Shown here: positions 11,125 through 16,342 of the stretch, in pieces
Layout of the letters: every line of letters begins with the position of its first letter
How positions within the stretch are numbered: the first letter of the stretch is position 1
From: a virus
Strand: one strand, 5' to 3'
DNA: 39,200 nucleotides
Virus record (IMG/VR): IMGVR_UViG_3300042301_001300
Span: 1 to 39,200 of that record
Made by a program: the position numbers and the translations under genes
Notes under the pieces: model-generated
Told to the model about the DNA's origin: nothing
Database searches by the model: none
What the model saw: the letters and a program-made list of their open reading frames with translations, nothing else

Positions 11125-11227
11125 AGAAATTATTGCTGACTTAAGAAAGCAAGTACAGCAGTTACAAGAGTTGATAAGCCAGTTGAAGGGTGACATGGCT
11201 TCTATTGAAAGGGAACTAAACCGATGA
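11093..11227 (+). CDS. Small coiled-coil protein
   Basis: A 44-residue protein; GTG 11093 is chosen because GGGAG lies just upstream at the right distance. After MANMRKTKT the sequence is one helix with heptad spacing (IIADLRKQVQQLQELISQLK). Its stop overlaps the WhiB start (ATGA), so the two are translationally coupled. It may oligomerise or act with the WhiB protein; no family is recognised. Confidence 0.6.
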   Translation: MANMRKTKTTEEIIADLRKQVQQLQELISQLKGDMASIERELNR

Positions 11228-11484
11228 CAGCATTAAAGTATTTAGGATGGTTTGATGATGCGGTGTGCAAAGGTATGGATGGCAACATCTTTTTTCCTGA
11301 CACACCTACAGGTATTTCGACCAAAGGTATTTTCGTTGATGCACAAGCAGTGTGTAAAGGTTGCGCTGTGAAGAAGCAATGTCTTGCGTTTGCTATGGAA
11401 GCAGAAGAGTTTGAGCAACGTAGGTACGGTGTGTGGGGTGGCAAGACCCCTGCCGAGCGTTCGGTGTTGCGTTCGGGATATTGA
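11224..11484 (+). CDS. WhiB-family iron-sulfur transcriptional regulator
   Basis: An 86-residue WhiB-like protein with the four cluster ligands Cys15, Cys44, Cys47 and Cys53 (CKGCAVKKQC) and the GVWGG turn (69-73), then a short basic tail (SVLRSGY). WhiB proteins occur almost only in actinobacteria and their phages. They bind sigma factor region 4 and redirect transcription. In mycobacteriophage TM4 a WhiB protein represses host whiB2 and contributes to superinfection exclusion. It is the last gene of the early rightward operon. Confidence 0.9.
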   Translation: MTALKYLGWFDDAVCKGMDGNIFFPDTPTGISTKGIFVDAQAVCKGCAVKKQCLAFAMEAEEFEQRRYGVWGGKTPAERSVLRSGY

Positions 11485-13664: not shown

Positions 13665-13837
13665 GCTTGTACCCTTTCTGCTTGTTGTTTGTACTGTCTG
13701 ACCTGACAAGCGTGTGCTAGCCAGTACTGCTCTAACGGGTCGCCCCGTGTCGCTTTAGCGTTACGGTCTGCGCGTTTCGCTTCCGCTTCATACGCTTTCA
13801 ATATCGCGTTGATGTTTAGTTGCTTTGCCCGTGCCAT
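13661..13837 (-). CDS. Small basic helical protein
   Basis: A 58-residue protein (MARAKQLNINAILKAYEAEA...), coupled upstream by TAATG and downstream by ATGA. Almost all helix, rich in Arg, Lys, Gln and Ala (QVRQYKQQAERVQA). It may bind nucleic acid; no family recognised. Confidence 0.6.
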   Translation of the reverse strand: MARAKQLNINAILKAYEAEAKRADRNAKATRGDPLEQYWLAHACQVRQYKQQAERVQA

Positions 13838-14124
13838 TACTTAGCCCCCCTGACTGCTTCTAATGTGCGTAGTATTGCTCGCAACGATAGATACGCTTCG
13901 CTCTTCGTCATACCCAAGTAACCGTCACCGAGATGTAGTGGCTTGTCCGAGTATCCCGAGTTACCTTCATAGCCTGTGGTATAGAGACGGTATGCCCGTC
14001 CGTATGTTTTGCTACCTTTGTCAAGCACTACCTTTGTCTCTGCTGGCAACAAGTTTGCCCACCTAAACTCTTCGGTAATCATCTTCACTAGTTGCTCTAG
14101 TTGTCTTTCCGTTGTTCTTTCCAT
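13837..14124 (-). CDS. Hypothetical protein, first gene behind an internal leftward promoter
   Basis: A 95-residue protein from ATG 14124 with GAAGGGAA upstream. Helical ends flank a Gly/Tyr-rich middle (YRLYTTGYEGNSGYSDKPLH). It follows a near-consensus promoter (14157-14185), so it opens a second leftward transcription unit. Function unknown. Confidence 0.66.
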   Translation of the reverse strand: MERTTERQLEQLVKMITEEFRWANLLPAETKVVLDKGSKTYGRAYRLYTTGYEGNSGYSDKPLHLGDGYLGMTKSEAYLSLRAILRTLEAVRGAK

Positions 14125-14156
14125 TGCTGGTTCCCTTCGTTGATGTGATATGTCTA

Positions 14157-14185
14157 ACCGTAGTACGAATACTATGAGATGTCAA
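14157..14185 (-). promoter_or_regulatory. Leftward promoter with embedded dyad
   Basis: On the minus strand TTGACA (14185-14180), a 17-base spacer and TACGGT (14162-14157). The spacer contains TAGTA-TTCG-TACTA, a perfect 5-bp inverted repeat that could be an operator. It should drive the genes from 14124 leftward. Confidence 0.72.
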
Positions 14186-14203
14186 GGATTATCTTTTCAT
14201 CGT

Positions 14204-14243
14204 GGGTGTCGGGGACTTGAACCCCGATGTCTGCCAGTCACCC
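14204..14243 (-). other. Structured element with a tRNA T-arm-like hairpin
   Basis: Minus strand: GGGTG and CACCC close a 40-base element. Inside is a 6-bp stem TCGGGG/CCCCGA with loop TTCAAGT, which fits the tRNA T-loop consensus TTCRANY. The unpaired stretch ACTGGCAGACA resembles a tRNA D-loop. No anticodon arm or full acceptor stem is present, so it is not a tRNA. It may be an att-type tRNA fragment or a relative of the two three-way-junction elements at 15301 and 15802. It lies between a stop codon and the promoter at 14157-14185. Confidence 0.5.
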
Positions 14244-14253
14244 GACTTACTTG

Positions 14254-14451
14254 TTACCCGTTGGTAACTTTCATCCCGTCCGCTTGATGCCACGCTTCAC
14301 CCTCACCCATAACGGGCTTCACCTTGTAATCTAAATTACCGTAACGCTGTCGGGCATCCACTATCTCCACCTCAAAACATAATGCCGACCCTGCCACCTG
14401 TAGTAGTGCTGTCTTGCCTATGTTCTGTGCCAATTCTTGTGCGGTAGCCAT
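14254..14451 (-). CDS. Small beta-rich protein of unknown function
   Basis: A 65-residue protein joined by TAATG to the gene before it. After a helix (ATAQELAQNIGK) comes a beta-rich part (ALCFEVEIVDARQRYGNLDY) and a Gly-rich end. No family recognised. Downstream is the structured element at 14204-14243. Confidence 0.62.
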   Translation of the reverse strand: MATAQELAQNIGKTALLQVAGSALCFEVEIVDARQRYGNLDYKVKPVMGEGEAWHQADGMKVTNG

Positions 14452-14699
14452 TAGTTGCCTGCTTTCGCTTCTTCTCGTTCTTCTTGGACTTCGCGGTCTA
14501 GTCTCCGTACTTTTTTCAGTTGCTCTACTGCTTGCCCTGCTTTGTCCATCATGTGGTCATAGCCCCTAGCCCATGCGTAATCTAGGTCTTCTCTGTCCAC
14601 CTGTTCTATGACTGTCTCTACTTCTTTCATCAACCGTTGCAAGTCTCGCTTCAAGTTGTCTAGTTCGGTTTCGTATCTGCTCGTTGCTTCTGTGTTCAT
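14451..14699 (-). CDS. Small coiled-coil protein
   Basis: An 82-residue protein from ATG 14699 (TAATG with the membrane protein gene; the longer reading frame is out-of-context extension). It is a long charged helix with heptads (YETELDNLKRDLQRLMKEVE and LKKVRRLDREVQEEREEA). Probably oligomeric. Function unknown. Confidence 0.62.
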   Translation of the reverse strand: MNTEATSRYETELDNLKRDLQRLMKEVETVIEQVDREDLDYAWARGYDHMMDKAGQAVEQLKKVRRLDREVQEEREEAKAGN

Positions 14700-14824
14700 T
14701 AGTTGCCCCCCTCTTGTCTGCCGAGCGCTCTCCCCATATGAAAACATATGAACCCGATAGCCATTGCGCATAGCACCGAGACTTCGGCTGAATTGTCCCG
14801 AATAAAGTAGATGATATTTTCCAT
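14699..14824 (-). CDS. Small single-pass membrane protein
   Basis: A 41-residue protein coupled by TAATG at both ends. One membrane helix (AEVSVLCAMAIGFICFHMG) is flanked by MENIIYFIRDNS and a short basic/Gly tail. Tiny membrane proteins in early phage operons often interfere with host envelope functions; that is only an analogy here. Confidence 0.58.
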   Translation of the reverse strand: MENIIYFIRDNSAEVSVLCAMAIGFICFHMGRALGRQEGGN

Positions 14825-14958
14825 TATTTCCCCGTTTCCGTTTCTTCTTCTTGTGTTGTGGCAACTATCGCCCCGACAATTTCCTCTTTTGTTGCGGTCA
14901 TTGGTAATGTCACCGTTGGACGGTCAAAACCTATGCCCATAATTACTATTTCACCCAT
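14824..14958 (-). CDS. Small acidic protein
   Basis: A 44-residue protein from ATG 14958 (38 residues if the internal ATG is used). N-terminal hydrophobic strand (MGEIVIMGIGFDRP), then a polar Thr/Glu-rich tail (TQEEETETGK). It overlaps both neighbours by a few bases. Function unknown. Confidence 0.5.
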   Translation of the reverse strand: MGEIVIMGIGFDRPTVTLPMTATKEEIVGAIVATTQEEETETGK

Positions 14959-15263
14959 GATGTTTCGTGGTCCCTTCTTGTTAATGAATAAAAGTCCTGT
15001 ACTCTTGCCAAGTATTCTGTTTTGATTACTTCCGATGTGAATTGGTGATACCGAAGAAAACCAGTTTGAGTGCTCGGTATGCTCCCTTTCCCTTCTCCTT
15101 CTAAAAATCGGTCTAGTTGCTCCTCTGCTCTCTCTAGTTCTTCAATTAAATATCGCAACTCAAACTTAGTTTTCTCTGCTTGACCGTGCAATAAGGTTAA
15201 TCTGTTGCCCCATTCTCGGTCCGTCTCGCCTTCTTTTCTTTCGTGCATCGTTCTTTCGTCCAT
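14946..15263 (-). CDS. Charged helical protein
   Basis: A 105-residue protein from ATG 15263 with AAAGGGAAA upstream. Very rich in Glu, Arg and Lys (MDERTMHERKEGETDREW), with a predicted coiled coil (LIEELERAEEQLDRFLEG). It lies directly downstream of the folded leader at 15301-15346. Function unknown. Confidence 0.65.
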   Translation of the reverse strand: MDERTMHERKEGETDREWGNRLTLLHGQAEKTKFELRYLIEELERAEEQLDRFLEGEGKGSIPSTQTGFLRYHQFTSEVIKTEYLARVQDFYSLTRRDHETSWVK

Positions 15264-15300
15264 AGTTTCCCTTTCGTTTCTTATTCTGCTTTTGCATCGT

Positions 15301-15346
15301 TCCCTAGTGAGTGCGTGACACTCTGCCGACTGTATCGGGCTAGGGA
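15301..15346 (-). ncRNA. Three-way-junction structured leader, copy 1
   Basis: The closing stem TCCCTAG (15301-15307) / CTAGGGA (15340-15346) is perfect over 7 bp. Inside are two hairpins, GAGTG/CACTC (5-base loop) and CCGA/TCGG (5-base loop), with only one or two unpaired junction bases. It sits 38 bases before the 15263 start. A second copy at 15802-15843 has the same closing stem and order but different paired sequences in both hairpins, as expected if structure is conserved. On the minus strand both are followed by a similar tail containing ATGC(A/G)AAAGCAGA. Confidence 0.55.
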
Positions 15347-15357
15347 GAACCTACCTG

Positions 15358-15561
15358 CTAACTCTCTATGTAAATTTCTTGCCATTCTCCGTCTAGAGGT
15401 AGGTTGAGTGTTTGCTGTTCTTCGGCTGTAAAGTAGTCTGCTGTTGTTTTGTGTCCCCAACCGTCCGAATTATTCCACCATAAACTCTCCCAATATGACG
15501 GGTGATTTCTAAACGCTAGTTTGGGTGTCCCTATGTGATGTATCGCATATTCAATTTTCAT
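15358..15561 (-). CDS. Small Trp-rich protein
   Basis: A 67-residue protein; ATG 15561 overlaps the previous stop (ATGA), which favours it over an in-frame start at 15582. Sequence features: MKIEYAIHHIGTPKLAF, then YWESLWWNNSDGWGHKTTAD and an acidic end. The folded leader at 15301-15346 follows its stop. Function unknown. Confidence 0.62.
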   Translation of the reverse strand: MKIEYAIHHIGTPKLAFRNHPSYWESLWWNNSDGWGHKTTADYFTAEEQQTLNLPLDGEWQEIYIES

Positions 15562-15758
15562 TGGTTGCCCCGTTCTTTCCAATATCCTGTTGAAATAAAT
15601 ATGTCCGATAGTTTTTGTATTTCTCGGGCAGATGTCACGCCATAGATTGAGTTTGGCTCGCTCTTGTCGTTCATTGCTTGCGCTCTGATTAGTTGTGGGA
15701 TTAAAAACTCTGTGCAGATATAGTCAATCTGTGCATCGTTTAGTTTGCTTGCGTCCAT
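15558..15758 (-). CDS. Small helical protein
   Basis: A 66-residue protein. ATG 15758 is chosen because GGGGAAAGA lies just before it; the longer frame from 15815 would overlap the folded leader at 15802-15843. Predicted helical (QIDYICTEFLIPQLIRAQAM). Function unknown. Confidence 0.58.
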   Translation of the reverse strand: MDASKLNDAQIDYICTEFLIPQLIRAQAMNDKSEPNSIYGVTSAREIQKLSDIFISTGYWKERGNQ

Positions 15759-15801
15759 TCTTTCCCCGTTCTGTAGTTGGATGTTGTCTGCTTTCGCATT
15801 G

Positions 15802-15843
15802 TCCCTAGTGCTCATTGAAGAGCCACGCCCAAGGCGCTAGGGG
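15802..15843 (-). ncRNA. Three-way-junction structured leader, copy 2
   Basis: Closing stem TCCCTAG (15802-15808) / CTAGGGG (15837-15843; last pair G-U) with two inner hairpins, GCTC/GAGC (6-base loop) and CGCC/GGCG (3-base loop). Same architecture and closing stem as copy 1, with compensatory changes in both hairpins. It lies between the stop of the first leftward gene and the start of the second. Confidence 0.55.
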
Positions 15844-15849
15844 AATAAT

Positions 15850-16029
15850 CTAGGACTCTAATCCGCAAGCCTCTAGAAATAGGTCACGCTTGAAATTGGC
15901 GTTATCTCTCTTCATAATCTTGGCTAATTCTTCTGCTACATCTGCTAACGCGCCTTTACCCTCGCCTACGCAATCCTCGCGGATAATTTTGATAGCCTCG
16001 GCTATTTCCCTGTAATGCTTGCGTGTCAT
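15850..16029 (-). CDS. First gene of the leftward operon, small conserved-type phage protein
   Basis: A 59-residue protein from ATG 16029 with GGGGACAAG upstream. The sequence MTRKHYREIAEAIKII and the ending NFKRDLFLEACGLES match a small protein that I recognise from many phages (xHYxxIA ... F-x-x-ACG). All helical. Its molecular role is not established. It is about 40 bases downstream of the predicted leftward start site. Confidence 0.72.
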   Translation of the reverse strand: MTRKHYREIAEAIKIIREDCVGEGKGALADVAEELAKIMKRDNANFKRDLFLEACGLES

Positions 16030-16074
16030 CTTGTCCCCTGTCCCTTGTAGTAAGGCTTATTCCCTACTGATACA

Positions 16075-16103
16075 ACTATATCCAAGCGTAATACAAATAG
16101 CAA
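16075..16103 (-). promoter_or_regulatory. Main leftward promoter
   Basis: Minus strand: TTGCTA (16103-16098), 17-base spacer, TATAGT (16080-16075). It points to the leftward cluster, with transcription expected to start near 16068. A CRP-like palindrome is centred about 53 bases upstream of that point. Confidence 0.7.
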
Positions 16104-16113
16104 GTATTATTTA

Positions 16114-16129
16114 TGTGACATGCGTCACA
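16114..16129. promoter_or_regulatory. CRP/FNR-family consensus palindrome
   Basis: TGTGA-N6-TCACA (TGTGACATGCGTCACA), matching the CRP half-sites exactly on both sides. Actinobacterial CRP-type regulators such as GlxR and mycobacterial Crp use nearly the same consensus. It lies between the divergent promoters, about 53 bases upstream of the leftward start and about 108 upstream of the rightward one. Confidence 0.6.
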
Positions 16130-16193
16130 CACTTAGACAACGGTAGCCCATCACCAACACAGATACAAGAGACCAACACATCACAACAAGAGA

Positions 16194-16223
16194 TAGACAG
16201 TAGGCGACCCTCGCCGATATAAA
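16194..16223 (+). promoter_or_regulatory. Rightward promoter of the control region
   Basis: TAGACA (16194-16199), 18-base spacer, TATAAA (16218-16223). Transcription would start near 16230, run through the tandem repeats, and reach the late operon after about 700 untranslated bases. Confidence 0.5.
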
Positions 16224-16267
16224 CTATTTGCAGTGGCTATGCAATTTGTTTTGGGAAGGCTACCTAT

Positions 16268-16342
16268 ATTACTGTGCGGTAGGTTACTTGCAGGTAGTTT
16301 GTCGGCAGGAAAGTTACTTGCAGGTAGGTTACTTGACGGTAA
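16268..16342 (+). repeat. 15-bp tandem repeat array (iteron-like)
   Basis: Five consecutive 15-bp units. Units 2 (16283-16297) and 4 (16313-16327) are identical, GTTACTTGCAGGTAG. Unit 5 (16328-16342) is GTTACTTGACGGTAA. Unit 1 (ATTACTGTGCGGTAG) and unit 3 (TTTGTCGGCAGGAAA) are degenerate. Such evenly phased repeats are typical of iterons at plasmid/phage origins or of multi-site operators. Confidence 0.65.

Follow-up and report, generated by a model that had tools for sequence, protein, structure and literature searches.

In mitochondrial tRNA punctuation and at the RNase III sites between T7 early genes, structured RNA marks cuts in a long transcript. Viral tRNA-like structures, such as that of turnip yellow mosaic virus (TYMV), and phage and operon RNAs cut by RNase P have been reviewed (PMC11143913). 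Reports of short conserved repeats 5' of actinophage genes go back to at least 2011. In cluster K mycobacteriophages, SAS is a 13-bp SD-like word, GGGATAGGAGCCC, and ESAS is a pair of 17-bp inverted repeats (PMC3203893). Repeated intergenic motifs also occur in Microbacterium phages of clusters EC, EF, EG and EI and in Gordonia phage CaiB (PMC7302621, PMC9302106). The openly accessible papers searched gave no description of tRNA-like intergenic elements in such phages.

The elements described here come from the window, which is the whole 39,200-nt stretch of viral DNA analysed, and from related phages. SAS and ESAS are similar to them in that they are repeated in a single orientation immediately 5' of some early genes, lie in relatively long gaps and are lacking in the host, whereas a tRNA-like fold is not described for them (PMC3203893). 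Identity with SAS/ESAS was rejected, as the element sequence differs and the model of class R1 (see below) gave no significant matches in the right arm of TM4. In TM4, the ESAS copies upstream of SAS include inverted repeats (TGTTGAC...TCAACA) that may be DNA sites and not RNA structures. The Microbacterium and CaiB motifs are likewise short repeats in gaps 5' of start codons of actinobacteriophages, but they are short words or 18-bp inverted repeats for which a compensatory RNA fold is unreported (PMC7302621, PMC9302106).

Structured elements in the leftward operon

The window carries a WhiB family gene on the plus strand (11224-11484, Pfam E 5.5e-16), and its terminase is distantly related to Streptomyces phage terminases (about 25-31% identity). 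On account of these two genes, the host of the phage is very likely an actinobacterium. GenBank phages searched with the window nucleotides gave no matches.

A preliminary description of this DNA had placed two three-way junctions in a leftward operon. Their position, closing stem and fold were all reproduced, and both elements, renamed w1 and w2, were on the minus strand, the one transcribed in this operon. The pattern CCCTAG-N18..48-CTAGGG occurred twice in the whole window, against 0.02 expected from shuffles. The three-way junction folds had energies of -20.7 kcal/mol for w1 (z -4.2) and -18.9 kcal/mol for w2 (z -2.5).

Element w1 (15301-15346, minus strand) consists of a closing stem P1 (TCCCTAG/CTAGGGA, 15346-15340/15307-15301), P2 (15338-15335/15329-15326, loop TACAG) and P3 (15323-15319/15313-15309, loop TCACG). 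Element w2 (15803-15842, minus strand) consists of P1 (CCCTAG/CTAGGG, 15842-15837/15808-15803), P2 (15836-15833/15829-15826) with a turn at 15832-15830 and an invariant G at 15829, and P3 (15823-15820/15813-15810) with the T-loop-like sequence TTCAAT (15819-15814). Its 3' tail AC (15802-15801) directly follows P1. A further minus-strand hairpin, P4, lies behind each element, reading ATGC-AAAA-GCAGA after w1 (15285-15297) and ATGC-GAAA-GCAGA after w2 (15787-15799). The two have a UGC-RAAA-GCA hairpin in common, and ATGC-RAAA-GCAGA was not found elsewhere in the window at zero mismatches.

Both elements precede small minus-strand genes. After w1, an SD sequence (AAGGG, 15269-15273) and an ATG lead into a 105-aa gene (14946-15263). 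After w2, an SD and an ATG lead into a 66-aa gene (MDASKLNDAQ..., 15558-15758), of which a 61-aa in-frame stretch (15558-15743) gave no matches in a family search. The downstream tails had been described as similar and as ending in ATGGACG; the SD and start codon were found after both elements, but ATGGACG is not a family feature.

Folding of the remaining gaps revealed a third, tRNA-like element, w3 (14200-14244, minus strand), upstream of a 95-aa gene (13837-14124, minus strand). Its acceptor stem (GGGTG 14243-14239/CACCC 14208-14204) is followed by a linker, ACTGGCAGACA (14238-14228), which contains GG as in the tRNA D-loop, and by a T arm (TCGGGG/CCCCGA) with the loop TTCAAGT (14221-14215). 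The 3' tail is AC (14203-14202), and the full order is GGGTG-ACTGGCAGACA-TCGGGG-TTCAAGT-CCCCGA-CACCC-ACGA. The element thus has an acceptor stem, a GG linker and a T arm, without an anticodon arm. It is the only match of its class, R2, in the window. The third element, the P4 hairpin and a P2 turn with a 12-15 pair (see below) had been overlooked in the preliminary description.

Two RNA classes with compensatory changes

Pattern scans of IMG/VR found relatives for both w1 and w2. Scans with the tail and the CTAG pattern also gave many chance matches, which were removed by folding. Model R1 was built on 26 distinct w2-type sequences. At E up to 3, a first search with it yielded 110 matches from 51 loci, of which the weakest are chance or antisense readings of the w1 type, and a second gave 74 matches in 34 further loci. 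In a joint run on 70 loci, 146 matches in IMG/VR phage contigs had an E of up to 0.0005; 103 of them were distinct, and single contigs had up to 7-8 copies (L220 and L241). By blastn the R1 consensus had no matches, and R1 confirmed neither of two pattern matches in a species-genome collection of bacteria.

The 103 distinct sequences were aligned to their own model, R1. Standard pairs filled 99.4% of the paired cells, and each helix contained several pair types. Both sides differed from the commonest pair in 319 cells, compared with 79 in shuffles that ignore relatedness, which was left in. When the partner was slid by one column as a control, pairing dropped to about 45%. G-U was found in 61 cells and A-C in none. 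Because the complementary strand would show the G-U cells as A-C, the alignment indicates that the sense-strand RNA is the selected form.

The preliminary description had proposed an undescribed phage cis-RNA family with compensatory changes. Many homologues were found, and Rfam had no match for them. A lack of further homologues with such changes, which would have spoken against the proposal, is clearly contradicted by the 146 matches of R1. From these comparisons, the existence of a conserved RNA family is near certain.

The P3 loop of R1 is TTCAAT or TTCGAT in 92 of the 103 distinct sequences. Within P2, position 12 covaries with position 15 (mutual information 0.63), and G16 is unpaired and invariant (103/103); these are R1 model numbers, alignment columns minus one. 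This favours a reading of P2 with three pairs, one unpaired G and a terminal 4-nt turn, in which the 12-15 pair encloses two bases. Behind P1 come A or G and then C, and the base after these is A, U or G with a single exception.

The w1 type has the layout of R1, with P1, P2 ending in TACA-G, P3, A and P1, and a different P3 loop (TCACG). It was found in about nine contigs, nearly all of them almost identical; in one version (L236), the P3 stem (AGGT/ACCT) and the outer P1 pair have both changed, as read by eye. The two window copies had been taken as one family. Their layout, closing stem and tail agree with this, but w1 was insignificant against the w2-type model (E 0.47 on the right strand in an unfiltered search of the window). 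The link between w1 and w2 would consist of these three features, with separate relatives for each.

A pattern scan for w3 found 57 viral contigs. In blastn, w3 matched 109 GenBank phage records, mostly of Streptomyces and Mycobacterium phages, some weak ones surely by chance; among the records listed, the matches fall in unannotated stretches. For R2, a descriptor scan counted 7 copies each in sampled regions of the isolate phages Konstantine and Joe and 13 in that of Send513, against at most 0.1 in shuffles. These copies lie in gaps between genes. The R2 model had 83 matches in 54 loci with an E of up to 0.01, the last one partial. Plasmids searched for R2 gave no matches.

In the 52 distinct R2 sequences, 99.7% of cells were paired and 11 of the 12 pairs had changes on both sides. 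These 11 include linker column 15 with T-loop column 30 (A-U 43, G-C 4, C-G 2, U-A 1), a tertiary contact between linker and T-loop. The linker GG, TTC-R-A and the loop-closing G-C pair (columns 23-31, 52/52) were invariant, as they are in genuine tRNAs. An independent scan used a pattern that fixed the linker and T-loop and left the acceptor free. All five acceptor positions paired in 43 of its 44 distinct matches, for which the chance is about 0.7% each. Most of these matches started 4-17 nt past a stop codon, and an A/G-C end was present in 43/43, with C as the next base in only one.

R1 was not found in the Konstantine, Joe and Send513 regions, so R1 and R2 were kept as separate classes. 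Their layout, their tail and their co-occurrence in the same phages suggest a link between them.

Both classes were compared with known RNAs. Rfam 15 gave no matches in the window, in 15200-15900 at E<=5, in 12 related loci or in 5 further loci at E<=1, and ARAGORN called no tRNAs in the window or in 20 other loci. R2 has the G-C pair (G53-C61) that closes the TTCRANN loop of a tRNA T arm, whereas R1 has TTCRA in the 92 sequences without this pair. The invariant GG of the R2 linker corresponds to that of the tRNA D-loop, and it may dock in the same manner. A full tRNA gene was rejected, as the anticodon arm is absent and the acceptor of 5 bp and T stem of 6 bp differ from a 7-bp acceptor. A chargeable viral tRNA-like 3' CCA was also rejected; the elements are internal to the transcript and end in A/G-C followed almost never by C. 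One pattern match (L248), by sequence reading, belonged to an ordinary tRNA whose variable arm is long, and the tRNA-like idea arose from that resemblance. Three findings extend the preliminary description: the likeness to tRNA, the placement in many copies and the occurrence of a sister class in cultured phages.

Placement between genes and downstream tails

In most of the 139 distinct R1 placements, the element starts 2-20 nt past the upstream stop codon, and 28-55 nt separate its end from a start codon with an SD. This distance is 81-82 nt in one promoter-bearing group, and the simple start rule produced a few spurious, very short ones. In L220, L241 and L261, R1 is present in many gaps where consecutive small genes are about 90-110 nt apart, and overlapping genes have none. 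The apparent first genes of L220 and of the window operon are without an element, as judged from few operons with a home-made gene caller. In the window, this probable first gene (59 aa, 15850-16029, minus strand) is preceded by neither R1 nor R2, and a promoter-like match is located near it (16103-16075). A promoter-like TTGACA stretch was observed between the element and the SD at L154:268-395, L175:6317-6442 and 14125-14200 of the window (minus strand); transcripts from such a promoter would therefore be without the element.

A P4 hairpin is far commoner in the tails than in shuffles; stems of at least 6 pairs were present in 62 of 117 tails, against 2.7 expected. R1 and R2 have in common the A/G-C end rarely followed by C, the position just past the stop, a distance of about 30-50 nt to the next start and usually a P4 before that start. 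The leaders of L220, L241, L252, L256 and L261 have the SD inside a hairpin, e.g. GACCT-GAGG-AGGTC, and in one phage group the stems of this hairpin compensate (GACC/GGTC, TACC/GGTA, TGCC/GGCA).

Other structures occupy some gaps. Large ones lie at L256:4190-4300, L256:4649-4762, L241:11558-11670, L241:11176-11302 and L241:10342-10449; their hairpins have about 15-21 pairs, with an SD hairpin behind them, and they are possibly RNase III sites. Another type of three-way junction, with the P3 loop TTCACGA or TTCGTGA and unmatched by R1, lies at L256:2103-2197 and L256:2900-2996.

No common family was found among 66 proteins encoded downstream of elements, and a protein search with one early gene of L220 gave no matches. 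A riboswitch or single-pathway leader was rejected on the lack of a common family. An intrinsic terminator was rejected as well. Contrary to the alternative that these were only terminators, minus-strand terminator-like sites were absent at the elements and throughout 13800-16300, and the stem is followed by AC-N and not by a U tract.

Possible functions and comparison with known systems

The sequence comparisons demonstrate a conserved sense-strand fold, its placement and its tRNA-like features. We propose, with a probability of about 0.4, that the elements are tRNA-like modules that punctuate polycistronic phage mRNA and are cleaved by RNase P or RNase Z. In R2, an acceptor-like stem stacks on a T arm, and the linker has its invariant GG as in the D-loop/T-loop elbow of tRNA. 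In R1, a closing stem bears a T-loop-like hairpin and a small hairpin with the invariant unpaired G. The GG of R2, or the G of R1, may dock into the T-loop. The host tRNA-maturation enzymes, RNase P at the 5' side and perhaps RNase Z at the 3' side, would recognize the module and cleave the mRNA of the operon in its intergenic gaps, and the folded ends would then protect the mRNA pieces from exonucleases. The shape is compatible with RNase P cleavage at the 5' end of a stacked acceptor/T-arm helix. The covariation in R1 and R2, the invariant tRNA-like loops, the 43 of 44 matches in the free-acceptor scan, the stop-to-start placement and the many copies in the Konstantine, Joe and Send513 regions argue for punctuation. 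Several points argue against it. The stack has 11 pairs versus 12 in tRNA; the 3' end is A/G-C and rarely C, not the CCA that aids bacterial RNase P; R1 has no G-C pair closing the T-loop; the P3 loop of the w1 type differs; and Rfam matches, tRNA included, are absent. Other structures in gaps of the same operons also mean that general structure may suffice. That the rare C at the third tail base reflects avoidance of a mature CCA end is speculation. The wider statement is slightly more doubtful still, namely that several actinobacteriophage lineages have many half-tRNA modules of at least two architectures with a common tail, by which the host tRNA-maturation machinery cuts mRNA into separately protected gene units.

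Passive 5' protection ranks second and is rather unlikely. The fold would halt 5'-to-3' decay by RNase J or hide the 5' end from RNase E, and would thereby keep the message of each downstream gene stable, with no need for specific cleavage. A compact junction with probable tertiary contacts directly 5' of each gene, P4 close behind in most copies, other stable structures in similar gaps and the element-free first genes of two operons are consistent with it, but plain hairpins would be enough for such a boundary, and it leaves the kept TTCRA, GG, unpaired G and A/G-C-(not C) end unexplained. Translation control, ranked third, is unlikely. A host or phage protein or the ribosome would bind the tRNA-like fold and aid or block (re-)initiation after the upstream stop, which agrees with the tight distances to stop and start codons and with the compensating SD hairpin of one phage group. 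Many element-bearing phages are without this hairpin, conserved pairing of the element with the SD was not noticed, and the downstream genes have no common function. Structured RNA right after stops, in many copies along a single operon, might also act on transcription, as an HK022 put-type antiterminator RNA or by shielding the untranslated gap from Rho. This is improbable, as there are many copies within an operon and not one near the promoter, no link of tRNA-like loops with RNA polymerase is known and a U-tract terminator is absent at the sites. A DNA site (a repressor or recombination site, a tRNA-derived attachment site or a gene-exchange boundary) is very improbable; the elements do lie at gene borders beside unrelated genes, and phage att sites are often copies of tRNA 3' halves, but the G-U cells without A-C counterparts indicate selection on sense RNA, the stems of both classes change in compensation, and the copies are many per genome in a single orientation relative to genes.

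One of the repeat sets 5' of actinophage genes is, by these comparisons, a covarying RNA of tRNA-like form, which occurs in phages that are easily grown and marks gaps now left blank by annotators. If RNase P or RNase Z cuts the modules, phages have adopted tRNA punctuation for mRNA. If they are uncut, they are a new compact RNA fold usable as an insulator or stabilizer.

Compared with the mitochondrial and T7 systems, which use full tRNAs or long hairpins, the elements are half-tRNA modules of about 45 nt and putative cut sites. They resemble viral tRNA-like RNAs in acceptor/T-arm mimicry, and for the latter RNase P cleavage is known (PMC11143913). Those RNAs have a single 3'-terminal structure or a single cleavage site, whereas the elements occur in many intergenic copies in DNA phages, without CCA or an anticodon arm. 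These likenesses and differences suggest that the elements are a kind of viral tRNA-like structure whose location and copy number are new.
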